Of a stretch of DNA of 64,000 bases, positions 1,937 to 19,645 are shown piece by piece. Position numbers and translations under genes: made by a program. Source of the stretch: an uncultured archaeon (GTDB taxonomy: Archaea; Thermoplasmatota; Thermoplasmata; Thermoplasmatales; Thermoplasmataceae). Every line of letters begins with the position of its first letter. The first letter of the stretch is position 1. The notes under the pieces were generated by a model. That model saw only the letters and a list, made by a program, of their open reading frames with translations, had not been told where the DNA came from and made no database searches. The stretch is taken from positions 878,457-942,456 of the forward strand of contig CP009479.1 of assembly GCA_000965745.1 (NCBI GenBank). The letters are read 5' to 3'.

Positions 1937-3580
1937 TCAGAATAGACCAGTGATCTCACCATTTTCATCTACGTCTATCCCCTCGGCGGATGGGTGGGTT
2001 GGAAGGCCCGGCATGGTCATTACCGATCCCAGAAGCGGCACAACAAAGCCTGCTCCTGAAGAAATCGAGACTGAAGTCACCTTGATCCTGAAATCCTTGG
2101 GGGCGTTCAGCAGTGTCGGATCGTCGCTAAATGAGTACTGGGTTTTTGCCAGGCAGACCGGAGCTTCCTCCATTCCGACTTTCTTGAGGTTTCTGATATC
2201 CTTCAGTGCGCCTTTCTCATATATTACACCCGAGGCGCCATAAATCTCCGTCGCGATCTTTTCTATCTTCTCCTTGATATCGTCATCATCGTTATAGGTC
2301 CTCTTTATCTGGATATCCTTCTCGGGGATGCTTCCGATAACTTCCTTTGCAAGGTCGATTCCACCATCCCCCCCTTTGGCGAAGACTTCTGAAAGCGCGA
2401 ATTTTATGCTGTTCTTCTGCAGTATTTCGATCAGGGCTTTTATTTCGTTCTCAGTATCCTTGGGGAACCTGTTTATCGCTACAACCGGCTCGAACCCGAA
2501 TTGGCGCATGTTCTGCACGTGTCTGATCAAGTTTTCTGATCCTGATTCGAGCGCTTCAACGTTTTCCTGGTTGATATCCTCGGCCCTGCCATGGTGCTTC
2601 AAAGCCCTGATAGTTGCGACTACTACCACCGCATCAACCGGAAGATTGCCTATTTTGCTTGCGAGGTTCATGAACTTCTCGGCCCCGAGCTCAGAGCCGA
2701 AACCCGCCTCAGTTATCAGATAATCTGTAAGCTTCAGTCCTAACTTGTCTGCAAGGATGCTCGATGTTCCATGGGCAATATTCCCGAATGGCCCAGTGTG
2801 AACGAAAGCTGGAACTCCTTCCTGAGTCTGGACAAGATTTGGCCTCAAAGCATCCCTCAGAAGCGCAGCCATAGCACCTGCAGCCTTTAGGTCCCCTGCG
2901 AACACAGGCTTGTTGTCTGTTGAATATCCCACAAGTATCTTCGAGAGCCTTTCCTTAAGGTCAGAGTAACTCTGGGAAAGCCCAAGGATTGCCATAATTT
3001 CTGAAGCGGGAGTAATCACAAATTTGTCATTGGTTATTGCACCGGTGTCCCTTCCTCCTACTCCCACAATGATCTCCCTGAGGGACCTGTCATTCATATC
3101 TATCGTTCTTGGAAAGAGTATCTTCTTCGGGTCTATATTTAGCGGGTTTCCATGGTGAATGTGGTTGTTGATCAGCGCAGAGAGCAGGTTGTGTGCAGCT
3201 GAGACTGCAGGAAAATCAGAAGTGAACAGAAGGTTGATCCTGTCGCTTGGCTCCACGGTGGATTTTCCGCCACCGGTAGCACCTCCCTTAATGCCGAAAC
3301 ATGGACCCAGAGAGGGCTCCCTGAGTGCTACCGCCACATTCTTTCCCAGTTTCTGGAAAGCCTGGGAGAGACCTATGCTTGTAGTGGTCTTCCCTTCCCC
3401 CGCCGGTGTCGGGTTTATTGCAGTTACAAGTATGAGTTTCCCTCTTTTTCTCCCCTCCCTCCTAGACAGGGCCGAAAGCGAGACTTTGGCCATGGTTCTC
3501 CCGTAGGGTTCGTACTCATCCTTCCCAAGCCCAAGCTTGGATGCTATTTCGGATATTTCCCTCAATTCCATCTCATTCAT
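1937..3580 (-). CDS. fhs: Formate--tetrahydrofolate ligase
   Basis: A 547-residue ATP-dependent ligase that makes 10-formyl-THF from formate and THF, close to the family's usual 550-560 residues. The P-loop is TPAGEGKTTTSIGL at about 58-71. Other conserved stretches are REPSLGPCFGIKGGATGGG and the C-terminal MTMPGLPTHPSAEGIDVD. It is the last gene of a three-gene minus-strand operon and overlaps the cyclodeaminase gene by 8 bp. Together the three genes move the formimino carbon of formiminoglutamate on to folate, with Fhs joining the formyl pool in either direction. Confidence 0.95.
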   Translation of the reverse strand: MNEMELREISEIASKLGLGKDEYEPYGRTMAKVSLSALSRREGRKRGKLILVTAINPTPAGEGKTTTSIGLSQAFQKLGKNVAVALREPSLGPCFGIKGGATGGGKSTVEPSDRINLLFTSDFPAVSAAHNLLSALINNHIHHGNPLNIDPKKILFPRTIDMNDRSLREIIVGVGGRDTGAITNDKFVITPASEIMAILGLSQSYSDLKERLSKILVGYSTDNKPVFAGDLKAAGAMAALLRDALRPNLVQTQEGVPAFVHTGPFGNIAHGTSSILADKLGLKLTDYLITEAGFGSELGAEKFMNLASKIGNLPVDAVVVVATIRALKHHGRAEDINQENVEALESGSENLIRHVQNMRQFGFEPVVAINRFPKDTENEIKALIEILQKNSIKFALSEVFAKGGDGGIDLAKEVIGSIPEKDIQIKRTYNDDDDIKEKIEKIATEIYGASGVIYEKGALKDIRNLKKVGMEEAPVCLAKTQYSFSDDPTLLNAPKDFRIKVTSVSISSGAGFVVPLLGSVMTMPGLPTHPSAEGIDVDENGEITGLF

Positions 3581-5384: not shown

Positions 5385-7730
5385 ATGATAAACCAGATCG
5401 TTAAGAGGGACGGAACAGTTGTGCCGTTCGATAAGACAAAAATCACCAGGGCTATCTACAAGGCGATGCTCTCGGTGAAAAATGGCACCATGAATGATGC
5501 CGAAAAAATAGCCGACAAAGTAGTCAAGGAACTGGAAAAGAAAAAGGGAACGCCAACAGTTGAACAGATTCAGGATCTGGTAGAAAGTACCCTGATGACC
5601 ACCAAGATTAACAACCAGCCCTTCAAGAACGTTGCAAAGACATACATCCTTTACAGAGAAAAGAGAAGAACAATAAGGGAAGAGAAGGAGAGACTGGGCG
5701 TAAAAGATGATCTCAAGCTTTCAATAAACGCTGTTAAGGTGCTTGAAGCAAGATATCTTCTTAAGGATGAAGAAGGTAAGATTATAGAAACACCACGCCA
5801 GATGTTCAGAAGAGTTGCAATGCATCTAGGAATAGTGGACTCCCTTTACGATTACAAGTCATTCCAGAAAACTGGAAACGTCAGAAAAGACGGCAAAAAA
5901 CTCTCATATCTGTCAAATACTCAAATAGAGACCCTCAATCGGGCGTTCGACAGCATGGTGGAGGATGGAGACCTGACAGGTTCGTTCGAAGAGTTTCTGG
6001 ATTTTGTATATACAAACTACACCACTGCAGAAGAAACGATCAACGAATTCGAGGAGATGATGCAGAACCTTGAGTTTGTGCCAAACTCACCAACCATGAT
6101 GAACGCAGGCGCTAGGCTTGGCCAGCTTTCAGCATGTTTTGTGCTTCCAGTTGGCGACAGCATAGAAGACATCTTCGATGCAGTCAAGTACACTGCCCAG
6201 ATACACAAGTCCGGCGGTGGAACTGGGTTTGCCTTTTCGCGCCTTAGGGCAAAGGATGACCTAGTAGGATCAACAAAGGGGGTAGCCTCCGGTCCGGTCT
6301 CCTTCATGCAGATATTCGACAAAACCACTGATGTTATAAAGCAGGGTGGAAAGAGAAGGGGAGCAAACATGGGAATCCTGAGGTATGATCATCCTGACAT
6401 AATGGATTTCATCATGAGCAAGGACAACCAGAACACCAAATTGGCCAACTTCAACATATCAGTCGGAATGGAAGACGAATTCTTCGAAAAACTTGATCAG
6501 GATGGTTATGTAGAGCTCAGAAACCCAAGGTCAAGGAAGGTAGTCAACAGGATCAAAGCCTCCACTATGTGGGATGCAATCGTCAACCAGGCATGGAAGA
6601 CCGCAGACCCCGGGCTGATCTTTCTGGATGAAATAAACAGGAAGAACCCGGTAAGGCACATCGCAGATATAGAGGCAACCAACCCGTGCGGAGAACAGCC
6701 TCTTATGCCCTATGAATCCTGCAACCTGGGCTCAATAAACCTTGCAAAGTTTGTCAAGGACGGGGAAATTGACTATGAGAGATTGAGGAGGGTGATCAGG
6801 CTTTCAACAAGATTCCTCGATAATGTAGTAGATGCGAACAACTTCCCGGTCGATCAGATCAAAAAGATGACAAGGAGCACCAGAAAGATCGGCCTAGGTA
6901 TAATGGGATTCGCAGACATGCTGATAAAACTCGGCGTGAGATACAACAGCGGGGAAGCGCTCGAAATGGCCGAGAAGATTATGAACTTCCTTCAGGAGGA
7001 ATCACACATGGAGTCTGAGAGGCTCGCTGAAGAGAGAGGCGTCTTCCCTGGCTGGTACGGCTCAACCTGGCAGGAGATGGGCGTGAAGATGAGAAACTCT
7101 ACTACAACTACCATAGCTCCGACAGGAACAATCTCAATAATCGCAGGTTGCTCATCAAGCATAGAGCCTATCTTTGCAATAGCATTCATGAGGCATGTCT
7201 TGAACGGTCAGGAACTTATTGAGGTCAACCCGCTGTTTGAATCATATCTCAGGGAAAGGAACCTTTACTCGGAAGACCTCATGCACGAAGTAGCCAAGAC
7301 AGGCAACCTGCACAACGTTGAACTTCCGCAGGAAGTCAAGGAACTCTTTGTCACATCACACGAGATAGAGCCGGAATGGCATGTTCTTATGCAGGCCACA
7401 TTCCAGAGGTATTGTGACTCCGGTGTTTCAAAGACAATAAACCTTCCAGCAGAGGCATCTCCGGGAGATATCGCAAAAGCCTACAGGATGGCAAAGGATC
7501 TCCACTGCAAGGGAATTACGGTCTACAGGGACAGGAGCAAATCTGAACAGGTTCTATACTCCGGAACAGAAAGCAAGAAGACGGAGGATAAGAAAGAAAG
7601 GGTCAAGGACGCACCTTCACATGAAGAGGAGGATAAAGTCATAGAACTTATAACGAAGGTTCCTGACAAGTACCTGAAGGTTGATGCAACCTTCGATCCT
7701 GCCTGCCCCACTGGAAAGTGTGACAAGTAG
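5385..7730 (+). CDS. nrdJ: Adenosylcobalamin-dependent (class II) ribonucleotide reductase
   Basis: A 781-residue protein that reduces ribonucleotides to deoxyribonucleotides with B12 as radical source. An N-terminal ATP-cone (about 1-90, starting INQIVKRDGTVVPFDKTKI) precedes the barrel, which shows NSPTMMNAG, QLSACFVLPVGDSIEDIF, NPCGEQPLMPYESCNLGSIN and the loop APTGTISIIAGCSSSIEP. The C-terminal CPTGKC provides the redox-active cysteine pair that re-reduces the active site. The ATG at 5385 has a GGAGG 7 nt upstream; an overlapping ATG at 5381 is out of frame. It fits a B12-using organism, as does the B12/radical SAM protein at 22.7 kb. Confidence 0.95.
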   Translation: MINQIVKRDGTVVPFDKTKITRAIYKAMLSVKNGTMNDAEKIADKVVKELEKKKGTPTVEQIQDLVESTLMTTKINNQPFKNVAKTYILYREKRRTIREEKERLGVKDDLKLSINAVKVLEARYLLKDEEGKIIETPRQMFRRVAMHLGIVDSLYDYKSFQKTGNVRKDGKKLSYLSNTQIETLNRAFDSMVEDGDLTGSFEEFLDFVYTNYTTAEETINEFEEMMQNLEFVPNSPTMMNAGARLGQLSACFVLPVGDSIEDIFDAVKYTAQIHKSGGGTGFAFSRLRAKDDLVGSTKGVASGPVSFMQIFDKTTDVIKQGGKRRGANMGILRYDHPDIMDFIMSKDNQNTKLANFNISVGMEDEFFEKLDQDGYVELRNPRSRKVVNRIKASTMWDAIVNQAWKTADPGLIFLDEINRKNPVRHIADIEATNPCGEQPLMPYESCNLGSINLAKFVKDGEIDYERLRRVIRLSTRFLDNVVDANNFPVDQIKKMTRSTRKIGLGIMGFADMLIKLGVRYNSGEALEMAEKIMNFLQEESHMESERLAEERGVFPGWYGSTWQEMGVKMRNSTTTTIAPTGTISIIAGCSSSIEPIFAIAFMRHVLNGQELIEVNPLFESYLRERNLYSEDLMHEVAKTGNLHNVELPQEVKELFVTSHEIEPEWHVLMQATFQRYCDSGVSKTINLPAEASPGDIAKAYRMAKDLHCKGITVYRDRSKSEQVLYSGTESKKTEDKKERVKDAPSHEEEDKVIELITKVPDKYLKVDATFDPACPTGKCDK

Positions 7731-7741
7731 TCTGCCATAAT

Positions 7742-7768
7742 CCCCCCTTTTCTTTTTTTTTGATTTTT
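7742..7768 (+). terminator. Oligo-T terminator after nrdJ
   Basis: A run of C followed by two long T tracts begins 11 nt after the nrdJ stop codon. Archaeal RNA polymerase terminates at such T-rich tracts without needing a hairpin. Confidence 0.6.
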
Positions 7769-7814
7769 CAATAGCAGGATAAGTATAATATCTGGTTTGC
7801 TCATGCTATCTGGT

Positions 7815-8240
7815 ATGGCAGAAAGGTCCAATTTGATAAGTATGCTTATTATGATCCAATTCACACTTCTCATTGTGGAATTTCTCGTAGGAATGTACCT
7901 CAACCTGTTTCCCCAAATAAATTTCCCACTCTCCATGGGGTCAGGTTTCAGCTCAGTGATGCTTTCTCTTGCTCCACACATGGCAATAGGAATACTGCTT
8001 TTCGTCATTGGCCTAGTGATAGTGATAATATCCGTAAGGGGAAAGGACCAGAGAATAAGGACAAGTTCAATACTCGCACTGCTGTTCATTATTCTTGCAG
8101 GAGTGGCTGGCTATATGTTTGCATTCCAGTCCGGATCAGACCTCATGTCTTTCTCAATGGCAACAGGATTCGTCCTTGCGCTGATAATTTACATGATCCC
8201 CGTATCAGTTCTGATGAGATCCACTGGTCAGGTAGCATAA
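7815..8240 (+). CDS. Four-helix integral membrane protein of unknown function
   Basis: About 141 residues with four predicted membrane segments (roughly 8-28, 48-75, 86-105 and 115-134) separated by short loops, one of them basic (VRGKDQRIRT). I do not recognise the family. A TATA-like TATAATAT at 7785-7792 lies about 26 nt before the ATG at 7815, which suggests a leaderless transcript; an ATG at 7803 and a TTG at 7797 are alternatives. It is the last chromosomal gene before the tRNA-Leu integration site. Confidence 0.65.
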   Translation: MAERSNLISMLIMIQFTLLIVEFLVGMYLNLFPQINFPLSMGSGFSSVMLSLAPHMAIGILLFVIGLVIVIISVRGKDQRIRTSSILALLFIILAGVAGYMFAFQSGSDLMSFSMATGFVLALIIYMIPVSVLMRSTGQVA

Positions 8241-8363
8241 CAGGGCATCAAGAAATATTAACGCAGTAGGAACAGATCATGGGATCAAAGTGGATTCGGT
8301 GAGAACATATCCGCCTGCGATACAGTAAATTAAATATTGTATCTATTAATCCCTTTCAACAAA

Positions 8364-8448
8364 GCAGGGGTTGTCGAGATTGGTCAAAGGCGCTAGATTG
8401 AGGGTCTAGTCCCGTAGGGGTACGTGGGTTCAAATCCCATCCCCTGCA
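8364..8448 (+). tRNA. tRNA-Leu (GAG)
   Basis: An 85-nt gene that folds as a class II tRNA. The acceptor stem GCAGGGG/CCCCTGC is followed by discriminator A at 8448, the T arm is GTGGGTTCAAATCCCAT and there is a long variable arm (CCCGTAGGGG). The anticodon loop TTGAGGG is closed by CTAGA/TCTAG, placing GAG at 8400-8402. CCA is not encoded. A TATA-like TTAAATATT lies about 30 nt upstream. Its 3' end is the integration site of the following element. Confidence 0.95.
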
Positions 8449-8449
8449 T
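8438..8449 (+). repeat. attL: 12-bp direct repeat at tRNA-Leu 3' end
   Basis: CATCCCCTGCAT spans the end of the T arm, the 3' acceptor strand, the discriminator base and one flanking base. The identical copy is at 19634-19645. A short CCAAAT follows both copies at slightly different distances. Integration at this place leaves the tRNA gene intact. Confidence 0.85.
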
Positions 8450-8555
8450 ACCTCCAAATGTTCAAAACACTACACCAGCAAACGATCCATTTTTGTAACT
8501 CTTTAAATACTAAGCGTAATTCATACTACTATATTCATATTTAAACATCACTAAT

Positions 8556-8710: not shown

Positions 8711-9781
8711 GTGCCTGTAATACGTAAGGATATGATCGAAGAAAGCAATCCAGCAGAGGATTCAATTCGACACTTTGCGGCCCAGGCATCTGCTTTTAAA
8801 AGTCACAAGAAAGCAAGGGACGCTGCATTTAAAGCTTGGAGAACAATGAGAGCTAGAGAGCTTGAAATAGCTTCTAGGGGAGTTCCAAGGCTAGATAAAT
8901 TCAACAAAGACGCATACCTAGTTCCAGAAGGCGTCAGCTTCTCGACATACAGGACTTCTTCTCCTTTAGTTAAAACCTCAAAGCTAACGAGCAAGGAAAA
9001 TGGCGGTGTTGGGAAGGAACTCTCAGACGGTTGGGTAGCAAATTATGCTACAGGATGCACTCATGGATGCAAATTCTGCTACGTGGATGCAATCCATAAA
9101 AAATTTGGTCAGAAAAGGGTTGGCAGTATTGTGTATGATGACTGGGGAGATTACTTTGCTATCCCTTCCAATCTGGACGAGGTTATTGAAAATACTAAGT
9201 GGAAGAGGTGGAGCGGGACTGAAGTGATGCTTTCATCAACTCATGACCCATATCTTCCTCAGGTTAACAAGTACACAAGAAAAATCCTCGAAAAGGCTCT
9301 TCCCGAAGGGGTAAAATTCTGCATACAAACGAGAAATCCACTTGTGGAGCGTGATATGGAGCTTATAAGTCAATACCGGGACCAAGTGAGACTTCAGGTG
9401 TCCATAGCATCAATGAATGAGGATCTCTCCAGAGCTATAGAACCAAGGGTAGTTAAACCAGAAAGAAGACTGCAAATCCTCGAAAAGGCTAGAGAACATG
9501 GGCTGAATACCGGAGTCATAATAGCTCCTGTATTCCCGGAACTAAAAATCAGACCACACGTTTATGCAGACATAAAAGCCATTGCCTCAAGACTAGAGAC
9601 ATTTAGGCCAGACCACATATATGGCGAATCACTGCATCTAAGGGGAATAAACATAGCATATGTTGAAGATGCACTTGGGCAAGCAGTGAATATCGATGGG
9701 TTTGACAAAAAGGCGGAAGAATGGTTCCACAAAGCCTTAAGTTGCTATAATCTGAAAGGAATTTGGTGGAAGGAGTTTTGA
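8711..9781 (+). CDS. Radical SAM protein (SPL-like/three-Cys-motif), partner of TcmP
   Basis: A 356-residue protein with the radical SAM cluster motif CTHGCKFCYV at C116, C120 and C123 (CX3CX2C). It is followed by TIM-barrel features similar to spore photoproduct lyase-like proteins (STHDPYLPQVNKYTRKILEKAL, IQTRNPLVERDMELI, VRLQVSIASMNEDLSRAIEP). The N-terminal 100 residues are charged and helical. It starts at GTG 8711 with a TATA-like box about 25 nt upstream, so it is probably leaderless. It converges on the TcmP gene 7 bp away. The substrate is unknown. As the first gene inside the integrated element it looks like cargo rather than replication machinery; a host-protection role is only a guess. 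Confidence 0.8.
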   Translation: MPVIRKDMIEESNPAEDSIRHFAAQASAFKSHKKARDAAFKAWRTMRARELEIASRGVPRLDKFNKDAYLVPEGVSFSTYRTSSPLVKTSKLTSKENGGVGKELSDGWVANYATGCTHGCKFCYVDAIHKKFGQKRVGSIVYDDWGDYFAIPSNLDEVIENTKWKRWSGTEVMLSSTHDPYLPQVNKYTRKILEKALPEGVKFCIQTRNPLVERDMELISQYRDQVRLQVSIASMNEDLSRAIEPRVVKPERRLQILEKAREHGLNTGVIIAPVFPELKIRPHVYADIKAIASRLETFRPDHIYGESLHLRGINIAYVEDALGQAVNIDGFDKKAEEWFHKALSCYNLKGIWWKEF

Positions 9782-9788
9782 ACTATTC

Positions 9789-10799
9789 TTATTCAGTATC
9801 AAACTTCAGGGTCTGTTGTTCAAAACATTTGTTAAGGGCTGTCTCAGCATCTTGTCCAGTGACATTTTCAAGATGGTAGGCTATCCAGTTAACAGACTTG
9901 ACCCAATCACTTCCGGTTAGTGTATTTCTCGTGTAATAACCTAAGTGATATACGGGTGTATTTTTACGGGAATAAATTGGGAAAGCTTGCCCCTTCTCTT
10001 TTCCTATGCTATCTTCGAATTGTTTGTTCAACAGGCTTCTATAGGTTCCCTTCGAGTTTAGGTCGTTCATTTCAACATCAAGTATTTCCTTCAACTCCTC
10101 TGGGGTTTTGCCCAAACTGGTGCATATTGCCTTTACATAACCTAGATTACCTTTCTTCAGGGCACCATAAACTCGTTCAGATCCAGAGCTAATATTCACT
10201 AGGTAATCAACCCCTAAGTATTTTGAAGATAGGTATCTGTAAGTTCTCCAGTCAGTTTCCATTCCTTCTTGGTCCCCAAGGGCAAAAATAAGTGGCTTTT
10301 CAAATTTTTCTTCTATCAATTTGACGGCTTCACCGATTTTTTTATTACAGTTGCCCTCGATTACATGAAACTTATCTTGAAGCCCCATTTGACCAACCCT
10401 ACTTTTCAAGAGGCGAGCTCTCTCTTCGTTGCTCTCAATAAATATCGCCATGTCAAATTCTCTGTTTCCCTCTTGTTCCACGGTTGCCGCAAAAGGAGAT
10501 CCCACAACAGCTCTAAGTTTGCTACCTCTCTTGCCTCTAGTGACAGTAAGGCCACCTCCCGCGTACAGGTCAAGATAAATAGCTCCGTCATAATTTGCAG
10601 AAATAGCTTTTTCTCCCTTAGCTACCATCAGAAATCTGCTTGCAATGCTCCTCACTGCAACCAGTTTAGACAGCGTATAGGGCTTATAACTCACATCGTG
10701 GCTCGATGGTTCAAACACTTTTGCTAGCCTGACAATAGTTTCTATTCTGTCGCTTAAATATTTGATAGAGGCATCAATACTCGGTTTCCTGACTTCCAA
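9789..10799 (-). CDS. tcmP: Three-Cys-motif partner protein (TcmP family)
   Basis: A 336-residue protein resembling the TcmP family, whose members sit next to radical-SAM-like proteins carrying a three-cysteine motif. The N-terminal half has a Rossmann/methyltransferase-like core (AIYLDLYAGGGLT at about 70-82, IFIESNEERARLLKSRV at about 118-134, and a strand FALGDQEGMETDW). The C-terminal part is helical. TcmP biochemistry is not established. Its tail-to-tail arrangement with the radical SAM gene, with 7 bp between the stops, supports a functional pair, although they must be expressed from separate promoters. Confidence 0.75.
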   Translation of the reverse strand: MEVRKPSIDASIKYLSDRIETIVRLAKVFEPSSHDVSYKPYTLSKLVAVRSIASRFLMVAKGEKAISANYDGAIYLDLYAGGGLTVTRGKRGSKLRAVVGSPFAATVEQEGNREFDMAIFIESNEERARLLKSRVGQMGLQDKFHVIEGNCNKKIGEAVKLIEEKFEKPLIFALGDQEGMETDWRTYRYLSSKYLGVDYLVNISSGSERVYGALKKGNLGYVKAICTSLGKTPEELKEILDVEMNDLNSKGTYRSLLNKQFEDSIGKEKGQAFPIYSRKNTPVYHLGYYTRNTLTGSDWVKSVNWIAYHLENVTGQDAETALNKCFEQQTLKFDTE

Positions 10800-11138: not shown

Positions 11139-11345
11139 ATGGTTGACAGAATAAGTGTAGCTTGCCATGATGACTTCTTGGAAAGTCTTGATAAGCTTTC
11201 AGAAAGGCTTACGCTCTCCAGAAGTGCAACGCTAAGGCTAGGAGTGTATGAGTTGGCTAAAAAGGAAGGTATGGGCCCTGGTGACGTTAACACCAGGAAT
11301 CCCGTGGACAGTTCCCAGGAGTTGAACCAAGGAGAGTCCGTATGA
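11139..11345 (+). CDS. Ribbon-helix-helix (CopG/Arc-type) DNA-binding protein
   Basis: A 68-residue protein. Residues 3-45 fit the ribbon-helix-helix pattern: a short beta strand DRISVAC, then two helices (FLESLDKLSERL and SRSATLRLGVYELAK). The rest is a hydrophilic tail. Such proteins act as copy-number or transcription repressors in plasmids and archaeal viruses. It is the first gene of the replication operon; GGAAGTGATG precedes the ATG. Its TGA overlaps the ATG of the next small gene (ATGA), implying translational coupling. It probably controls its own promoter through the nearby palindrome. Confidence 0.75.
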   Translation: MVDRISVACHDDFLESLDKLSERLTLSRSATLRLGVYELAKKEGMGPGDVNTRNPVDSSQELNQGESV

Positions 11346-11476
11346 AAGATACAAACTTTGCTAATAAACATTCGCAATCAGACCGTAAAAATACAGGTTC
11401 TCCAGCTAACAATAGGGCTGAACGGATGAAAGAATACATGGATCTCCTGGACGAGCTCTTTGAGGGTGTTGAGTGA
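11342..11476 (+). CDS. 44-residue hydrophilic protein of unknown function
   Basis: A small frame that begins with the ATG of an ATGA overlap with the ribbon-helix-helix gene and ends at TGA 11474-11476, just before the helicase gene. The protein is polar in its first half and ends in an acidic helix (RMKEYMDLLDELFEGVE). The tight stop/start overlap, and the GGAGG for the next gene placed at its stop codon, support it being translated. I do not recognise it; it may be a small helicase-loading or regulatory peptide. Confidence 0.55.
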   Translation: MKDTNFANKHSQSDRKNTGSPANNRAERMKEYMDLLDELFEGVE

Positions 11477-11487
11477 GGAGGACCAAA

Positions 11488-13638
11488 ATGCAACCAAGTG
11501 GTTATTCTGCACTTTCAGTGGCCTTAAGTCCTGGTCAGATAGATGAGTTTGAGAAACGCCTGCAGTTCCTCACAGAAGGTCGTTCAAAGAAATTCAGCGA
11601 GGTTTTGTCACAATATTCTGCGGTCGCAATCACTTTGCATCAGGCAAAGGAAATTGATCGCCTGAGAGGGATTCAAAGCAAACTGGTCAGGGTGTATGAC
11701 ATTTACAGCGGATATGACCAGCCCGACCCCGCTCCAGAGCTAGTTGAGGGATGGATGGAATCTGTAAGAGAGGAGGTCATCAATAAGAACGAAGTTGACC
11801 GTCAAAAGCTAGCCCAGGAAATAAACGAGGAATACGGGTTTGCCAATCTAAATGGTGTCGAGTTCCTTAGATACGATGATGCTGAAGGATATTGGAAGCC
11901 TGATGCTGAGTTGTTCATAGGGAAGATAGTCAGACATGTTCTGCCCGATGAGTCCACACAACATATTGTCAATGAGGTTTGCCATTGGATTAAGGACTAT
12001 AGACTATTAGCAAACCCTTCTGAATTTGAGAAAGTCCCTGATGGGTTGATAAATATGCCAAGAGGTGTGTTCAACATCAGAACGGGAAAGCTGGAACCCC
12101 ACAATCCAGACTACCACTTCAGATATGTGTTGCCTTTCAACTACAATCACAGGGCCAGGAAGTCCAAGTTCATGAAGGTCCTTTCCGAGATTACTGAGGA
12201 TGACCCCCGTAAAGCTGTTAGGGTTCTAGAGATGTTTGCATGGGTCCTCATTCCTGGATATCCCATACAGAAAGCTATTGCACTGTATGGGAACGGAAAC
12301 AATGGAAAATCAGTGATTTTGGGAGTTCTGTCTGCATTTGTAGGCTCCCTAAATGTCTCTGGCGTCACTATGCAGCAGTTATGTGACAACAGATTTGCCG
12401 CAGCAAATCTTAGAGGGGCCCTTGCCAACATCTCAGGAGATGTCGGTGCAGGTGCATTACTGGACACCTCTCAGTTCAAGCAGGCAACGGGAGGGGACAG
12501 AATAGATGCGGAGAAGAAGGGCGTTCAGGAACCCTTACGGTTCTGGAACACAGCTAAGATGATCTTCTCCTTCAATACTCTTCCAAGAACCAGAGATACC
12601 ACTAATGCGTATTTCAGGCGGTTTGAGTTAATTGAGTTGGTACAGGACTTTGAAGGCAGAGAGGACAAGAAGCTTCTGAGCAAGCTCACAACAGAGGATG
12701 AGTTGCAGTCCATATTCAACACAGTCAGTTCGGTATTCCTGCCAGCGCTCCTGGATAAGCTGGAGTTCGAGTTCGGAAAGAAGGCTGATGAAATCAGGAC
12801 AAATTACGAATTGAATGCAAATTCCGCTCTTGCATTCATAGATGAAAGAATAGCGCCTAACAGCATTGGACAGATACTTTCCCAAGACCTATATGCCAAA
12901 TATACTGAATGGTGCAAGGAAAAAGGAGTTGTTGCACTCTCAGAGGAATCCTTCGGAAGTGCACTCATCAAGCTGTCAGGCATAGAAGGGGTTTTTAAGT
13001 CTCGAAAGCAGGAGAACGGTGTCAGGAAAAACTACTACGTTGGAATATCTTTGACAACACCTGAGAATGATTCTAACAAACCTAAAAACAAGGAAGAGAC
13101 CCCGACCTATGGCACGTTTGAAGAGGCAGTATTAGACTATATTTCCAATCACTTCAAGGACCGGAGTGCCATAGGTGGCATAGTATCTGTACTCCCGGAT
13201 GGTTTGGGAAACGGTACGAGAGTACAAAACCCATGCCACCTATGGCAGCAAAAGAGAACCATACTCTCAAAAGATGCCGTAATAGCATCTCCAGAGAAGT
13301 GCCATAGCTTATCGGTACCTATGGCAGAAGATGATTCCAAAGACTGTGTCTCCCCATCTGAAGTTGACGACATCAGCGAAAGTAATGAAAACGAGGGAGT
13401 GCAGACAGATACTGAAAAATCACTGCTTGAAAGAGTTATCGACCTTCTTACTGATTGTACATACAACACCACAGAGAAATTCAGATCTGTTCAGTATCTT
13501 GCTGAAGCAGCAATAGACGGAGACATCACACATAGCACAATCTACGAGGCTCTGGAGGAAGGGGTTAGCCGGGGACAGGTAGTCAAGAAGGGTGCAAAGT
13601 ACGGATTCAAGTGTTACGTTGGAGGTGATTCAACATGA
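11488..13638 (+). CDS. SF3 (D5/P4-type) replicative helicase with N-terminal RHH-like segment
   Basis: About 716 residues. The helicase core has Walker A GNGNNGKS at about 268-275, preceded by a D5_N-like region (GLINMPRGVFNIRTGKL), and later QATGGDRIDAEKKG and FSFNTLPRTRDTTNAYFRRF, typical of plasmid and viral D5/P4 helicases. No archaeo-eukaryotic primase domain is evident at the N-terminus. Instead, the first 45 residues (ALSVALSPGQIDEFEKRLQF and onward) look like a ribbon-helix-helix unit. After about residue 525 comes a low-complexity linker containing inverted repeats, then a C-terminal winged-helix-like segment. The start is ATG 11488, with GGAGG upstream; GTG 11473 is less likely. It is the key replication protein of the element. 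Confidence 0.85.
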   Translation: MQPSGYSALSVALSPGQIDEFEKRLQFLTEGRSKKFSEVLSQYSAVAITLHQAKEIDRLRGIQSKLVRVYDIYSGYDQPDPAPELVEGWMESVREEVINKNEVDRQKLAQEINEEYGFANLNGVEFLRYDDAEGYWKPDAELFIGKIVRHVLPDESTQHIVNEVCHWIKDYRLLANPSEFEKVPDGLINMPRGVFNIRTGKLEPHNPDYHFRYVLPFNYNHRARKSKFMKVLSEITEDDPRKAVRVLEMFAWVLIPGYPIQKAIALYGNGNNGKSVILGVLSAFVGSLNVSGVTMQQLCDNRFAAANLRGALANISGDVGAGALLDTSQFKQATGGDRIDAEKKGVQEPLRFWNTAKMIFSFNTLPRTRDTTNAYFRRFELIELVQDFEGREDKKLLSKLTTEDELQSIFNTVSSVFLPALLDKLEFEFGKKADEIRTNYELNANSALAFIDERIAPNSIGQILSQDLYAKYTEWCKEKGVVALSEESFGSALIKLSGIEGVFKSRKQENGVRKNYYVGISLTTPENDSNKPKNKEETPTYGTFEEAVLDYISNHFKDRSAIGGIVSVLPDGLGNGTRVQNPCHLWQQKRTILSKDAVIASPEKCHSLSVPMAEDDSKDCVSPSEVDDISESNENEGVQTDTEKSLLERVIDLLTDCTYNTTEKFRSVQYLAEAAIDGDITHSTIYEALEEGVSRGQVVKKGAKYGFKCYVGGDST
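13167..13326. repeat. TGCCA/TGGCA inverted repeats inside the helicase gene linker
   Basis: TGCCATAGGTGGCAT at 13167-13181 and its exact reverse complement ATGCCACCTATGGCA at 13233-13247 form a 15-bp inverted repeat. Each arm is itself a TGCCA-N4-TGGCA palindrome. A third pair, TGCCATAG at 13300-13307 and CTATGGCA at 13319-13326, follows. All lie in the section encoding the variable linker of the helicase. They could bind a replication or partition protein, or mark an insertion. Confidence 0.6.
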
Positions 13639-13826
13639 TCCCTTCACTTGAATCATTCGAGACCAAACAGCAGGACACCATGATACTGGTTGCCATTTCG
13701 CAGGACTTCAATGTTGCCTGGAAGGACCGGGACTGGTATCTGCACGAACAGGGCCTCGTATATCTTGATGTGGAGCTCGCTGAAATGCTGATTCAGAGGG
13801 GCATTGCCAGGAGGGTGAGAAGATGA
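13635..13826 (+). CDS. 63-residue protein of unknown function
   Basis: It begins at an ATGA overlap with the helicase stop and ends at another ATGA overlap with the next gene, so it is embedded in the coupled operon. The sequence has a hydrophobic beta-rich centre (ILVAISQDFNVAWKDRDWYL) and a basic end (RGIARRVRR). An internal ATG at 13680 would give a 48-residue form. No family is recognised. Confidence 0.6.
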   Translation: MIPSLESFETKQQDTMILVAISQDFNVAWKDRDWYLHEQGLVYLDVELAEMLIQRGIARRVRR

Positions 13827-14182
13827 AACGAGGACTGAATCCGGGGAAATCGCTCGCAGACAAGCTCCAGCTATTGCCCAAGAAGGTCCCCAGACTCATC
13901 CAGGAAAACCTGGATGGGATAGCATCTCCATACCTTGGAAATATTGTGGTTATCTCTGACCAGGGGCAACAGGATGCACTGGGCAGTGAGATTATCAGTT
14001 TTCTTGAGGCCGAGGGGTTTGCTCTGGAGGCCGCACCCGTATATGTGCGACACAAGGATCACATTGGAAAGGTCTGGAAGTTTTCGCTGGGGCTCTATGT
14101 CAGTCTGTTCTACCGCGTACAGGAAGCAAATAACATCTCAATCACTGGAAGGATTGCAAGGGTCCAGGGGAGGTTCCCATGA
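13823..14182 (+). CDS. 119-residue protein of unknown function
   Basis: Coupled to both neighbours by 4-bp overlaps. The N-terminus is basic (KRGLNPGKSLADKLQLLPKK), and the middle alternates strand and helix (GNIVVISDQGQQDALGSEIISFLEAEGF). There is no membrane segment. The family is not recognised. Its position in the replication operon suggests a DNA-metabolism or regulatory role. Confidence 0.6.
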   Translation: MKRGLNPGKSLADKLQLLPKKVPRLIQENLDGIASPYLGNIVVISDQGQQDALGSEIISFLEAEGFALEAAPVYVRHKDHIGKVWKFSLGLYVSLFYRVQEANNISITGRIARVQGRFP

Positions 14183-14382
14183 AATTCGGAAAATACTCTG
14201 TCTCGGAGGTTCAGAAATTCAAGGGCCAACTCGTGAAGGTCTATTACTTCGATGTCAACAAGGGCCTGGTCACCCACGCTGGCGAAGTGCTGAATCGTTC
14301 ATTCAAGTATCTGCCCGTAGAATCTCGGACCTGGAGGAAGAGGATACCCCTGGAGCAAATCGTGGAGGTCCAGGAAATATGA
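14179..14382 (+). CDS. 67-residue basic protein, possibly SH3-like
   Basis: Starts at an ATGA overlap with the previous gene. It is rich in beta strands (GQLVKVYYFDVNKGLVTHAGEV) with conserved-looking aromatic and basic residues near the end (YLPVESRTWRKRIPLEQIVEV). It resembles a small SH3-like barrel, but no family is recognised. Confidence 0.55.
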   Translation: MKFGKYSVSEVQKFKGQLVKVYYFDVNKGLVTHAGEVLNRSFKYLPVESRTWRKRIPLEQIVEVQEI

Positions 14383-14513
14383 CTCTCAGAAAGCTACTCA
14401 TCAGAATATACGAGAACTATCTCTGGCTAGCATACTACAGGCTGAAATCACGCATTTTCGGGGAGCCTGAATACATATTTCTTGGGGAGGATGACAATGC
14501 AGATCGCCCGTGA
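14379..14513 (+). CDS. 44-residue protein of unknown function
   Basis: A small frame beginning at another ATGA overlap (14379-14382). It has a basic aromatic helix (RKLLIRIYENYLWLAYYRLK) and an acidic end. It overlaps the start of the winged-helix gene by 17 bp and carries that gene's GGGGAGG ribosome-binding site. The unbroken run of stop/start overlaps is the main evidence that it is a gene. Confidence 0.5.
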   Translation: MTLRKLLIRIYENYLWLAYYRLKSRIFGEPEYIFLGEDDNADRP

Positions 14514-14757
14514 GGAAAGGGAAAGGGCCCGAATCCTTTGGCTGGTGAAAGAGTCAGAATGGCAATCGGCCAAGCATATAGCTGCGAGATACCAGGAACT
14601 GTATCACGAAGAGATGAGCGTCCAGAAAGTCAAGAATATCCTGCAGCTCTTCATAGATGAGGGTCTCATAAGAGCCAAATCAACAAGACAGCGGAATTTC
14701 GCCAGGAATGTCTATTCCAGGAATGAGCCAACACTTATAAGCGAGGAAAAACTATAA
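14497..14757 (+). CDS. Winged-helix DNA-binding protein
   Basis: About 86 residues from the ATG at 14497, which lies 6 nt after GGAGG; an ATG at 14491 and a TTG at 14482 are less well placed. The order of elements (ARILWLVKESEWQSAKHIA, a recognition-type helix MSVQKVKNILQLFIDEGLI, then a basic wing RAKSTRQRNFARNVYSR) fits a winged helix-turn-helix. It is the last gene of the replication operon and is followed by a hairpin terminator, so it may be a regulator of the operon or of the membrane cassette. Confidence 0.65.
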   Translation: MQIAREERERARILWLVKESEWQSAKHIAARYQELYHEEMSVQKVKNILQLFIDEGLIRAKSTRQRNFARNVYSRNEPTLISEEKL

Positions 14758-14948: not shown

Positions 14949-15815
14949 ATGGAAAAATTGAAACCTAAACTAAAACGGTTCACCATTTTCGGGTTCCTGG
15001 CGGTCATGATCGCCGTGATTGCGCTGCCAGTGGGAACCTCGTTTGCCCAGGGCATCAGTGGGCATGGAAACACTCAACTGTACTCCACTCAGTTCGTGTC
15101 AGAGGCCCTGGCAATGCAGAATGGTACAACTACCTACAGCGCACTGCCCTTCAGTTCTGTGAATGGTTCATATACCATTTCAAACAGCTACCTGGTCGCA
15201 GGAGTCAACAACACAACTTTCACGGAGAATTACGGTGTAGTCTATCTTGCATCGAATATAACATTCAGCGAACTTTCATCTCACTCAGTCAACAAGCTTG
15301 TTGCACACATATCTCCAGTCTCCAACATCACAGCAGAACTTGGATTTGGGTCTGCATCAGTGACACCTAACGGAACATCTCTCTCATTCACGCCACTGCT
15401 TTCACAGAACACCACGGGAACAAATGGCTCTGCAACAATGACATTCAACCTTAACCCAGCTGAGCTCTCTGAAAACTCAACAGATGTTGTCGTTCTCAAG
15501 CTCCAGTTCACCAATGCATCATCATCGTTTTCAGCCTCAGGCTATGTTCTAGGCACCCAGAACGCTGAACCATGGTACATAGCAGGCGAATCTGCAGCCT
15601 ATGCAGTTGGCGGAACTCTGCTCTTTGCATTCGGATTTCTTGCACTCCCACACCTTGACATCAAGGTCAACAAGGCTAAGCTCCCATCGCTCCCAAGGAA
15701 GAAGTCCAAGTCATCACGGAAGACACAGACAACTCAGTACAGGCAGCAGGTCCAGAGAGCAAAACAGGTGAACAGCAGCAACAGAAAGAACTCGAAAAAA
15801 GGAGGTCGAAAGTAA
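14949..15815 (+). CDS. Secreted, membrane-anchored Thr/Ser/Asn-rich protein
   Basis: A 288-residue protein. A basic N-terminus and hydrophobic stretch (FTIFGFLAVMIAVIALPVG, about 15-33) ending FAQG looks like a signal peptide. Residues 35-215 form an extracytoplasmic region rich in N-x-S/T sequons and beta strands. A second membrane segment lies near 217-236 (AYAVGGTLLFAFGFLALP). The last 50 residues are a strongly basic cytoplasmic tail (KSKSSRKTQTTQYRQQVQR...KNSKKGGRK). This type I topology with a nucleic-acid-like tail suits a spike or envelope protein that contacts DNA, which is inference. Its TAA overlaps the next ATG. Confidence 0.65.
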   Translation: MEKLKPKLKRFTIFGFLAVMIAVIALPVGTSFAQGISGHGNTQLYSTQFVSEALAMQNGTTTYSALPFSSVNGSYTISNSYLVAGVNNTTFTENYGVVYLASNITFSELSSHSVNKLVAHISPVSNITAELGFGSASVTPNGTSLSFTPLLSQNTTGTNGSATMTFNLNPAELSENSTDVVVLKLQFTNASSSFSASGYVLGTQNAEPWYIAGESAAYAVGGTLLFAFGFLALPHLDIKVNKAKLPSLPRKKSKSSRKTQTTQYRQQVQRAKQVNSSNRKNSKKGGRK

Positions 15816-16282
15816 TGGCAGACACAGACTACATGCTATACAAGCGGATTATCTCGAAGCGTATGAGTGTCGGTGCAACCATCCTGGCATCATTCCTGGT
15901 GCTCATAGAACTTGCACTGCTCTTCTCTAGACCGTCATTCGGATTCGCTGGACATACCTACTACGTCAGCCAGGGTGTTGCAGCCTTTGCAATGCTCATT
16001 GGTGCACTCTTTTGGGCCATTGCAGAGATGTTCACACCCGCAGGAAGGACATTCTGGGCCCTGGCATCACGGTTCATAGTTGCATTCCTGATTGGCGGAA
16101 TATTCGGCGGTATAGTCGGTTCAGTGAGTGATTTCGGGCAGCTTGTGCTGGTCCCTGCATCAAACGGAAACGGGCTTGCAATATTCATGCTCCTGGGGTA
16201 TCTCTGGGTATTCATCGTCCTGGTATATTCCGGTGCATGGATGCACGCCAAGAACTTTGTCAAGAGAGGTGGTAAGCAGTGA
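15815..16282 (+). CDS. Four-helix membrane protein of the cassette
   Basis: A 155-residue protein with four hydrophobic segments (about 18-38, 49-72, 79-104 with a glycine-rich GGIFGGIVGSV, and 119-141). Both termini are basic and probably cytoplasmic. The ATG overlaps the previous stop by 1 bp, and its TGA overlaps the next GTG. No family is recognised. It is the largest polytopic protein of the cassette and could organise the smaller FG(V/I)W proteins. Confidence 0.65.
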   Translation: MADTDYMLYKRIISKRMSVGATILASFLVLIELALLFSRPSFGFAGHTYYVSQGVAAFAMLIGALFWAIAEMFTPAGRTFWALASRFIVAFLIGGIFGGIVGSVSDFGQLVLVPASNGNGLAIFMLLGYLWVFIVLVYSGAWMHAKNFVKRGGKQ

Positions 16283-16629
16283 ATGTGGTAACGGCAATCG
16301 CAGCCAAGGTGCTCCCCGCAACAACAAGCGGCTCAGGGACATCCGGTCTTGGAATGACCATCTTCAACTCGATCTGGAAGTTGGTGATGGGATTCCTTGG
16401 CGGCATACTGGATGGGGTCAACCTTCTCATGAAGGATACCTTTGGCGGTATCGGCCAAGCGATCATGCAGGTATTCCAGTCCTGGGGATTCTCGGTGAAC
16501 TCTCAGTTCGGTGTCTGGGCCCCTGTCGGACTCGTCCTGGTGCTTGGTGTAGCTGGAGCCCTGATATACGTCATGTTTGACGCAATCGGCATAGAGAAGG
16601 ACGTGCTGCACGGGGAAGAAGACATATAG
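16279..16629 (+). CDS. Small FG(V/I)W-motif membrane protein 1
   Basis: A 116-residue protein starting at GTG in a GTGA overlap. A glycine-rich amphipathic stretch (MGFLGGILDGVNLLMKDTFG) is followed by FGVWAPVGLVLVLGVAG, which begins the C-terminal membrane helix. The end is acidic (GIEKDVLHGEEDI). The FG(V/I)W(A/S)xP pattern at the mouth of the last helix is shared with the next two genes, marking three diverged paralogues. Confidence 0.6.
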   Translation: MNVVTAIAAKVLPATTSGSGTSGLGMTIFNSIWKLVMGFLGGILDGVNLLMKDTFGGIGQAIMQVFQSWGFSVNSQFGVWAPVGLVLVLGVAGALIYVMFDAIGIEKDVLHGEEDI

Positions 16630-16646
16630 ATGGAGGGTGAAAATAA

Positions 16647-16907
16647 TTGACACTCTCCATTCTCACTTTTTTTACCCAGATTTTCCAGTTCATAATTCAG
16701 GGATTGTTCGGTCTCATCAGCGGCTCTTTTGACTTCATTCTCTCGCTGGCAGGCAGCAGCATTCAGTCAGTGTCTGAACAGTTCGCACTGTCTGTTGAGG
16801 CATTCGGTATATGGTCCGTTCCGATGCTTGTTGTTGTCCTATCAATCACTGCAATCGGAGTATATGCGATCTTATCAGGGAGCGAAATGGTGGAGGGTCT
16901 CATTTGA
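16647..16907 (+). CDS. Small FG(V/I)W-motif membrane protein 2
   Basis: An 86-residue protein starting at TTG 16647, with GGAGGGTGA at 16632-16640. Two hydrophobic regions are separated by a polar amphipathic section (SSIQSVSEQFALSVEA). The second opens with FGIWSVPMLVVVLSI. It has the same layout as the 116-residue and 111-residue neighbours but no charged tail. Its stop overlaps the TTG of the next gene. Confidence 0.6.
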   Translation: MTLSILTFFTQIFQFIIQGLFGLISGSFDFILSLAGSSIQSVSEQFALSVEAFGIWSVPMLVVVLSITAIGVYAILSGSEMVEGLI

Positions 16908-17239
16908 GCGTAGTCAGCTTCTTCCAGAATCTCGGTCAGCAGGCATGGGGAGGTCTCACATGGCTCTACAATAATACAATAGGAGCAGGTCTGACTCTCT
17001 TTCAGAATGAAGTTCTGTCAGGTGCTGAATCCTTTGTCCTCAGCATTGCATCAGCGGCGCTCTCATTCTTTGGACTCATACTGTCCACAATCAATGGGAT
17101 ATTCGCCAGCTTCTTCAGCTCAATAGTGTTTATCTCTGCCAGTTTGGGAGTTTGGGCATTGCCTGTGGTGGTGTTCATACTCTTGGCTGTTTTCATCGTT
17201 ATGTACACGTTCATCAAGCTGGTTGTAGACCTTCTGTGA
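16904..17239 (+). CDS. Small FG(V/I)W-motif membrane protein 3
   Basis: The true start is probably TTG 16904, in a TTGA overlap with the previous stop and with GGAGGG at 16892-16897, giving 111 residues (MSVVSFFQNLGQQAWGG...). The frame stays open further upstream, but that part overlaps gene 2 entirely. A central hydrophobic segment (FVLSIASAALSFFGLILS) precedes LGVWALPVVVFILLAVF, the shared motif leading into the last helix. It is the last gene of the cassette. Confidence 0.6.
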   Translation: MSVVSFFQNLGQQAWGGLTWLYNNTIGAGLTLFQNEVLSGAESFVLSIASAALSFFGLILSTINGIFASFFSSIVFISASLGVWALPVVVFILLAVFIVMYTFIKLVVDLL

Positions 17240-17254
17240 ACTGTGAATTATTTT

Positions 17255-17288
17255 TGATACTACAGTATCATTTTTTAACACAGTATCA
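17255..17288. promoter_or_regulatory. Second copy of the TGATAC-N4-GTATCA operator plus half-site
   Basis: TGATAC (17255-17260), spacer TACA, GTATCA (17265-17270), then a further GTATCA half-site at 17283-17288 embedded in CAGTATCAGAAA. The same full site and half-site context occur at 10932-10951 and 11047-11058. Two matching arrangements 6 kb apart suggest one DNA-binding protein acting at both. Confidence 0.55.
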
Positions 17289-17648: not shown

Positions 17649-17966
17649 ATGGCATCACGAATGAACCAGGCTCAAATGGAAATACTTGAGGAGTACTACA
17701 GGGCAGTCGAGAAGACCGGGCTCACGGATGAGGAGCTCAGGCGCTATGTCAGAAGGGAGTTCGGGGTGACCCTGTCCAAGTCATATATCCCGGACCTCAG
17801 AACCCGCCTCAAGAATGGCAAGAAGATGCGTGCCAGCCCGCACACTGCTGATTCCGCAATCGACATAACCGAGTTCCTGGCAGAACCCCTGACAGACTGG
17901 AAGCCTCCCTACTGCTCACTGCCAGAATCCAGAAATCCCCTTAATCACATTATTATCAACCACTAA
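17649..17966 (+). CDS. 105-residue protein with helix-turn-helix-like region, unknown function
   Basis: The N-terminal 60 residues are helical and charged, with a pattern suggestive of a helix-turn-helix (TDEELRRYVRREFGVTLSKSYIPDLRTRLK). The C-terminal 45 residues are proline-rich and irregular. The family is not recognised. It is a solitary gene between two repeat-rich non-coding regions, which fits a small regulator or origin-binding protein of the element. Confidence 0.55.
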   Translation: MASRMNQAQMEILEEYYRAVEKTGLTDEELRRYVRREFGVTLSKSYIPDLRTRLKNGKKMRASPHTADSAIDITEFLAEPLTDWKPPYCSLPESRNPLNHIIINH

Positions 17967-18274: not shown

Positions 18275-19579
18275 TCAGTTGCCCTCCTTACTCAACCTCC
18301 TTCTGATTTCATCCTGGAGCGATTCAAATGACCCGGACTCCTTAGCGCCCTTCAGAATTATCCTAACAAACTCTGATCTTGCTTCAGGATTATCAAGCAC
18401 GGTCTCAAGCAGTTCCTTTTCGGCCCCGCTCACATTGTCAGACTGTCTGAGGGTCTCAACTGTTAGGGCCTCTTTCTCCAGGAATTCCTGCAGTACAGCA
18501 TGGTCCAGGGGCAGCCAGCACCTTCTGCAAACCTTTGAATTTGAAGGGTTCTCAGTTTCACACCTGGGGCACATAATGGGCCTCTCCTCTTCAAGCGGCT
18601 TATCCTCATCCTCCATTTTAACCCCATACGCACATAGAATAGCTCCATCTACGTCCTTACCAGAAAGGTGAACATAGGTCTGACTCATCTTTGATCCATG
18701 CACCCATCCCATGTGTTTTTCTAGTGGGGCTTCTCCTATCTTACTCGCAAGCAGGGTTGCCCTTGTATGCCTGAACAGATGAGGATAGACCCTTCTTGTG
18801 ATTCCTACTCTCTCGGCTGCTTTCTTCAGCATGTTCCGAACTTCAGGATAATCCATCTGGTTGTTGAAGTTCACAAGTTCGGTGAATAGCCAGGCATTCT
18901 CATCAGTACTCTTTGGGTGATTGCTCAACCAGGACCTGATATAAGCTATGCTGTTTCCAACTACCCTGACTTTCCTAAAACCAGTTTTTCCGGTCACGCT
19001 TATCATAGCCCCATATTTGTCAAACGCAAGGTCCTTAATCCTCATTGAGAGAAGTTCCGAAATCCTGCACCCCGAATCATATAGGAGTGATATGAGTGCC
19101 TTATCTCTAGCGTTTCTGCAACCTTCCAGGAGCTTGTCAACTTCTTTTGCAGTTATGTTTGTTTCTGGTTTCTTCTCTCTGCTTTTATGTCCAACAGTGG
19201 TTTTCAACCATTCAACACACTCAGGGTACTTCCTATCATCTGTAAGGAGCCATTTATAGAACCTCTTTAGAGTAACAGAATAAGCCTGAATGGCATTATC
19301 TGAAGGTTCGTGGAGTTCCCCGCCTCCCCATCTTACCTTCGTTGTGCTAACTGTCCTAACTACCTTCTTTATGTCCTTGGTTTCCGGGTTAAGAAATTCA
19401 TTTGGGATGATCTCTGCTATTTTCCTCAGTCTCAGAATATATGCGTATCTCCTTCCAGCAGATATTTTCTGAAGTGATAAGTCATCAATGAACTCAAGGA
19501 TTTTCTCCTTTGAGTCTTCAGATAGACTTGATTCTGTAAGTTTCCGCCTTTCCCTCTCCAGCCCATCTTCGTAAGTCAT
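18275..19579 (-). CDS. int: Tyrosine recombinase (integrase) with C-terminal zinc ribbon
   Basis: A 434-residue site-specific recombinase. Residues 1-130 form a SAM-like core-binding domain. The catalytic domain shows R172 (GCRISELL), H267-x-x-R270 (HLFRHTRATLL), the HMGW segment near 289-292 and the nucleophile Y302 (TYVHL). A C-terminal extension carries a four-cysteine ribbon (C337, C340, C351, C354; CPRC...CRRC) and a charged helical tail. All catalytic residues are present, so it is probably active. It starts 55 bp from attR, with a TATA-like ATTATAAAGG near 19620-19629. The gene is intact, not split by integration. Confidence 0.92.
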   Translation of the reverse strand: MTYEDGLERERRKLTESSLSEDSKEKILEFIDDLSLQKISAGRRYAYILRLRKIAEIIPNEFLNPETKDIKKVVRTVSTTKVRWGGGELHEPSDNAIQAYSVTLKRFYKWLLTDDRKYPECVEWLKTTVGHKSREKKPETNITAKEVDKLLEGCRNARDKALISLLYDSGCRISELLSMRIKDLAFDKYGAMISVTGKTGFRKVRVVGNSIAYIRSWLSNHPKSTDENAWLFTELVNFNNQMDYPEVRNMLKKAAERVGITRRVYPHLFRHTRATLLASKIGEAPLEKHMGWVHGSKMSQTYVHLSGKDVDGAILCAYGVKMEDEDKPLEEERPIMCPRCETENPSNSKVCRRCWLPLDHAVLQEFLEKEALTVETLRQSDNVSGAEKELLETVLDNPEARSEFVRIILKGAKESGSFESLQDEIRRRLSKEGN

Positions 19580-19633: not shown

Positions 19634-19645
19634 CATCCCCTGCAT
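19634..19645 (+). repeat. attR: 12-bp direct repeat
   Basis: CATCCCCTGCAT, identical to the 3' end of tRNA-Leu at 8438-8449. The flanking bases differ on both sides, so the core is exactly 12 bp, with a nearby CCAAAT also shared. It marks the right end of the integrated element. Confidence 0.85.

Follow-up and report, generated by a model that had tools for sequence, protein, structure and literature searches.

DNA transfer by plasmids of the pT26-2 family, and by pR1SE, is believed to run through membrane structures (PMC6972569; PMC10818511). The pT26-2 plasmids measure 17–38 kb, integrate, and share a conserved region rich in transmembrane (TM) segments that encodes a carboxypeptidase-regulatory domain, a carbohydrate-binding domain and an AAA+ ATPase (PMC6972569); pR1SE-like plasmids combine a PKD/lectin structural protein with an ATPase (PMC10818511). 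The lemon-shaped virus LSV-48N has no recognisable capsid protein (PMC12714723), so a virus family lacking one has a precedent. Thermoplasmata cells are mostly without an S-layer (PMC12448462), and our literature searches found no description of a membrane-containing virus from this class.

The cassette analysed here comprises five genes, SPIKE, TM4, PA, PB and PC, in an archaeal window (the whole stretch of 64,000 nucleotides that was analysed). A sequence-only reading had offered three origins for it: the envelope of a membrane virus, a vesicle-forming plasmid, or a pore. We think it probable that a so far undescribed family of integrative Thermoplasmata viruses with membranes uses this cassette as its conserved envelope (virion) module. 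This explanation fits best because the cassette lies in a mobile element, because its ~19-kb relatives are targeted by CRISPR and carry a spindle-virus ATPase, and because the predicted SPIKE fold resembles glycan-binding domains; a vesicle-forming or DNA-transfer plasmid remains as its rival. The features of the locus are collected in Table 1.

Table 1. The integrated element and its membrane cassette, in window positions.
Feature	Position	Strand	Description and basis
tRNA-Leu(gag), integration target	8364..8448	+	ARAGORN
attL CATCCCCTGCAT, tRNA-Leu 3' end	8438..8449	+	12-bp exact repeat with attR; 11-mer occurs only twice in window
Radical SAM protein (cargo)	8711..9781	+	NCBIfam radical-SAM families, E 1e-25 to 1e-18, below their cut-offs
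Three-Cys-motif partner protein TcmP (cargo)	9789..10799	-	TIGR04474, 63.7 bits (cut-off 53)
Palindrome TTTGATAC-N4-GTATCAAA	10931..10951	.	one of only two such sites in 2.23-Mb genome
Ribbon-helix-helix (RHH) regulator	11139..11345	+	PF01402 above cut-off
D5-type primase/SF3 helicase (replication)	11473..13638	+	DUF5906, D5_N and Pox_D5 above cut-offs; PHROG DNA primases
Small protein	13635..13826	+	55% identity over 49 aa with one in related locus L036
Small protein, function unassigned	13823..14182	+	ORF
Small protein	14179..14382	+	29% identity over 59 aa with one beside D5 in L117
Putative winged-helix protein	14482..14757	+	weak Pfam/PHROG HTH matches; blastp to relative upstream of SPIKE in L036
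SPIKE	14949..15815	+	predicted two-TM anchored, sequon-rich glycoprotein with beta-sandwich ectodomain and basic tail; homologues in relatives, fold of fused relative, sequons
TM4	15815..16282	+	four-TM membrane protein; 1-nt overlap with SPIKE
PA	16279..16629	+	amphipathic helix, TM helix and acidic tail; 4-nt overlap with TM4
PB	16647..16907	+	PA paralogue; TTG start, 17-nt gap after PA, GGAGGGTG upstream of start as ribosome site
PC	16904..17239	+	more distant PA/PB paralogue; TTG start, TTGA overlap with PB stop
Second palindrome TTTGATAC-N4-GTATCAtt	17252..17272	.	13 nt past PC stop
Putative HTH protein	17649..17966	+	weak PF13592
Tyrosine integrase, C-terminal zinc ribbon	18275..19579	-	PF00589, 8.6e-26; XerA-like, below cut-off; homologues beside D5 in L117, L119 and L124
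attR CATCCCCTGCAT	19634..19645	+	next to integrase start; repeat of attL

ORF analysis showed all five cassette genes to be intact and stop/start-coupled over 14949–17239, with PC starting at the TTG at 16904 and not at the ATG at 16811 of the mechanical ORF. The coupling by overlaps or close ribosome-binding sites described earlier thus holds for the whole set. A four-helix protein and a glycoprotein do precede the small proteins as claimed, but in the reverse order, SPIKE first and then TM4. The motif reported at the start of the last hydrophobic segment of three consecutive small proteins was found as FGVWA at PA 77, as FGIWS at PB 53 and as LGVWA in PC; among the 208 window ORFs of at least 60 aa, the pattern [FL]G[VI]W[AS] has these three matches only. 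Shuffled PA, PB and PC sequences give the motif with p 0.0015–0.0028 per protein, so three copies in a row are not due to chance. The last TM helix begins at the motif and has a mean hydropathy of 2.5. Carried over to homologues, the motif as written stands in part: its Gly recurs in 57 of 58 superfamily members and a Pro six positions later in 37 of them, but its Trp is not conserved. FG(V/I)W is a local form of a motif whose superfamily-wide core is Gly plus Pro at +6.

Profile comparisons show that PA, PB and PC are true paralogues, as had been proposed, with PC the more distant one. The PA profile recovers PB from almost every locus (E 1e-14 to 1e-4) and the window PC at E 0.009, and the PC profile matches PA members, down to 1e-8; hhalign yields 99.2% for PA-PB, 86% for PA-PC and 82% for PB-PC. 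Whichever of the three is used as seed, iterated profiles converge on one set of 58–59 sequences. E-values from small local databases are indicative only, so the homology claims rest on this convergence and on conserved synteny. In PA, ~40 amphipathic residues (moment 1.1–1.4) precede a strongly hydrophobic TM segment (mean 2.5) and an acidic tail. The AlphaFold model of PA is one long helix (pLDDT 76), whose pTM of only 0.37 fixes neither its tertiary nor its oligomeric form; no structural match to it was found. Ion channel and tape-measure protein were discarded as candidate identities for PA, the matches being weak and composition-like.

SPIKE contains TM segments at residues 11–29 and 215–233, 11 N-glycosylation sequons in its ectodomain, and a tail that is as basic as first described (18 K/R vs 1 D/E in 52 residues). 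Across the SPIKE family, 151 sequons stand against 56 expected in shuffles (shuffle maximum 75). The N-terminal segment, previously taken for a signal peptide, is probably an uncleaved membrane anchor, because it corresponds to an internal TM helix in the 13 relatives in which TM4 and SPIKE are fused. The predicted fold of one such fused protein (L025; mean pLDDT 79.6, pTM 0.69) runs through four helices, a fifth helix, a beta-sandwich and a sixth helix. Its sandwich resembles CBM86, CBM6, CBM22 and CBM4 (Foldseek best E 9e-4, probability 1.00, target TM-score 0.55), and its viral fold matches are mostly phage proteins, several of them named tail or tail-fibre. The best PDB match of the SPIKE profile, non-significant at E 0.29, is a surface glycan-binding protein that was also found by fold. 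SPIKE is thus predicted to be glycosylated and to hold, between its two membrane helices, a beta-sandwich resembling carbohydrate-binding modules. In split loci SPIKE precedes TM4, whereas TM4 comes first in the fused proteins; therefore the domain order has been swapped. The fusion in relatives argues that TM4 and SPIKE act as one complex.

The cassette occurs in 20 loci including the window, all in class Thermoplasmata, and in each of them two or three PA-type genes come after SPIKE and TM4. SPIKE and TM4 are split in 9 loci, the window among them, and fused in 13 of all loci. One further locus, L026, was left out of the counts as a possible assembly artefact, its TM4-SPIKE being joined to another element protein: at 2226–3500 the N-terminal part of TM4-SPIKE meets the C-terminal half of the protein F279 at an NGRITYWC-like stretch shared by both, as a natural recombinant or an assembly error. 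The distribution of TM4 homologues is patchy: they turned up in 12 of the order's 117 genomes and in 14 of 400 from the class. When 390 genomes of the phylum were searched by profile, matches were confined to the class, and the named carriers are Thermoplasmata MAGs. Values of dN/dS in close pairs lie between 0.02 and 0.27, one pair with saturated synonymous sites excepted, and point to purifying selection on the cassette. In 16 of the 20 loci a giant surface protein is encoded within about 0.65 kb downstream; that of one locus examined contains PKD domains. In L027 a DDE transposase (7559–8488) is inserted between PC and the gene of a 938-aa surface protein. L035 (13315–14322) and L076 (13681–14700) each encode, near one element end, a protein with a weakly MPTase-PolyVal/anti-restriction-like C-terminus, and the element in L028 has as cargo a DUF5131 gene with an intein.

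The window cassette lies inside an element integrated at the 3' end of a tRNA-Leu gene, whose extent is ~11.2 kb because the tRNA 3' end at attL is repeated at attR. With its integrase and att repeats the window element qualifies as an integrative mobile element, and patchy distribution and CRISPR targeting are seen in its relatives. A radical SAM and TcmP cargo pair (8711–10799) occupies the space between attL and the replication gene. The palindrome TTGATAC-N4-GTATCA brackets the RHH-D5-cassette unit, at the only two sites in the whole host genome; further sites lie in L049 (3997, 13817), L118 (1993) and L119 (7601, 10202), and in L049 identical 24-mers bracket the stretch from SPIKE to the giant-protein gene. 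The palindrome may serve as an operator, a terminator or a site of module exchange. Its identity as a chromosomal dif site was dismissed, since just 6 of 61 family genomes contain it. Pairs of integrase and D5 genes related to those of the window are found in L117, L119 and L124, three loci in which no cassette was detected; backbone and cassette are therefore separable modules. The L124 integrase is 45% identical to that of the window, and its element is bounded by a 15-bp tRNA-Ser repeat.

Three descriptions fit the window copy: a minimal virus, a satellite dependent on a helper, or a provirus in reduced form. That it is a decaying or satellite element, which kept its envelope genes, lost fibre and ATPase and does not move alone, is quite conceivable, though we lean slightly against it. 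We found neither a giant-protein remnant (best tblastn E 0.059) nor an ATPase homologue in the host genome, where only a zinc-ribbon match appeared, and the palindromes enclose the D5-cassette unit; against this, the five cassette genes, D5 and the integrase gene are all undamaged, and attL and attR are both kept. Such a status would concern the window copy only and is compatible with a virion module.

Relatives provide a record of mobility and of host defence. One complete genome holds two copies of an 18,976-bp relative that are 99.9% identical. In a congeneric genome of another species (G061), 13 spacers of a 133-repeat CRISPR array (L179, 7395–16164) match that ~19-kb relative, 5 of them perfectly over their full length; one match, 37/37, lies inside TM4-SPIKE. 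A second array, from another genus, has a 38/38 match, and reversed-sequence controls gave no spacer match passing the same filter. Spacers of two arrays thus show that hosts treat such elements as invaders, the targeting being seen for the ~19-kb relative, and the 133-repeat array with its 13 spacers is a record of repeated immunisation against one relative.

Relatives code for an AAA ATPase whose homologues include that of the lemon-shaped virus LSV-48N (tblastn 4e-19, profile 1.8e-32) and B251 of fuselloviruses (hhalign 97.2%, E 4e-11). PA shows no detectable homology to VP1 or VP3 (hhalign 0.2% and 0.5%), in a profile approach that did recover His1 gp21 from VP1, and PA, PB and PC have no detectable homology to known capsid proteins. 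The other structural genes likewise gained no hhalign support against spindle-virus counterparts, and the giant protein matched nothing in phage records by tblastn, its likeness to VP4 or end filaments being analogous only. L044 (9117–13883), L035, L039 and L037 share a downstream block of c6, c12, c18, c4, F279, c17, c16 and c15. The block end F279 (275–279 aa)-c17-c16-ATPase mirrors SSV1 B277-C102-A154-B251 in order and with similar sizes; the ATPase alone is demonstrably homologous. Three assignments did not hold: c18 as a capsid protein like VP1 (single-profile E 0.04, lost at 1.4% in profile-profile comparison), SPIKE as B277 (only 3.9%), and F279, c17 and c16 as homologues of B277, C102 and A154, which agree in order and size but not in sequence.

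That the proteins belong to no described family agrees with our searches. Pfam held no family above cut-off and PHROGs no significant family for SPIKE, TM4 and PA (for PB and PC the scan covered PHROGs); the cassette proteins matched nothing in 50,697 phage records and 72,556 plasmids; and pattern scans of IMG/VR with TM4, PA and F279, which have limited sensitivity, returned no member. An ATPase scan of IMG/VR gave one short match in the zinc-ribbon region, on a contig without the cassette.

From these data we infer that particles are produced, that they are virions, and which role each protein plays in them. TM4 and SPIKE would form one membrane complex that exposes a CBM-like, glycosylated beta-sandwich on the outside of cell or particle, and the sandwich may bind the sugar-rich surface of the host. 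PA, PB and PC, as small amphipathic-helix-plus-TM paralogues, would coat or curve a lipid shell, much as spindle-shaped viruses use their hydrophobic helical shell proteins. For most relatives, the giant surface protein could serve as a fibre and the ATPase in replication or genome delivery. More speculatively, and with considerable doubt, the module could represent a new virion architecture: a lipid shell made by three amphipathic-helix/TM paralogues plus a TM4-SPIKE complex, unrelated to known capsid folds, fitted to acid-loving archaea without an S-layer, and carried by full viruses of ~19 kb as well as by minimal integrative elements of 11 kb.

The main rival to a virion module is a plasmid-encoded machine for DNA transfer or vesicle formation, like those of pT26-2 and pR1SE, whose membrane proteins would bud vesicles or form a channel without making a true virion. 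We regard this as rather unlikely. The plasmid architecture outlined at the start resembles that found here; gene order in pMEFER01 is similar (small TM proteins, large two-TM proteins, ATPase), the 938-aa surface protein near the cassette in L027 contains CarboxypepD_reg, and the D5/integrase backbone also exists without the cassette (L124). However, no sequence homology with the pMEFER01 core proteins was found (hhalign at most 3.2%), cassette profiles finding no credible match among the seven pT26-2 core proteins of that plasmid; the relatives' ATPase matches the spindle-virus one and not that of pMEFER01; and no conjugation gene was present among the scanned genes of relatives. A cellular pore, transporter or lysis (holin) set, the pore having been among the original suggestions, is very improbable: the top PDB matches of the PA profile are ion-channel pores, but at a non-significant E of 0.2 or worse, the single PHROG holin match is weak (E 0.019), no Pfam transporter family scored above cut-off, and the cassette lies in mobile elements, one of them CRISPR-targeted.

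As an envelope module, the cassette gives a defined marker, widespread in the class and with a host CRISPR record, by which such viruses can be recognised and tested although it is missing from Pfam and PHROGs and was not met in IMG/VR pattern scans. Because backbones with either MCM or D5 carry this one module, it also bears on the relation between virus and vesicle-plasmid envelope modules.

With the D5-helicase/zinc-ribbon integrase elements L117, L119 and L124 the window element shares the backbone, L124 also sitting at a tRNA 3' end, but it carries a cassette not detected in those three. Like pT26-2 (pMEFER01) and pR1SE-like plasmids, it is an integrated plasmid-like element whose kind combines a TM-rich conserved module with carbohydrate-binding/PKD surface proteins and an ATPase; unlike pMEFER01 it has no homologous core protein that we could find, and the ATPase is a different one. 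Fuselloviridae, His1 and LSV-48N resemble it as integrative ~15–25-kb elements with exchangeable replication modules, a B251/DnaA-like ATPase (here in relatives only), tandem paralogous small hydrophobic proteins (cf. VP1/VP3) and a large end-filament or fibre protein. It differs from these spindle- and lemon-shaped viruses in that its shell proteins, fibre and SPIKE/TM4 lack sequence homology to theirs, in that the window copy has no ATPase, and in its three paralogues plus a TM4-SPIKE complex. Profiles matched no protein of HRPV-1, the sole pleolipovirus genome compared; the arrangement recalls Pleolipoviridae, where a small multi-TM protein adjoins an anchored spike (HRPV-1 VP3/VP4), and departs from it in a SPIKE ectodomain predicted to be a single small CBM-like domain and in the additional PA/PB/PC family.
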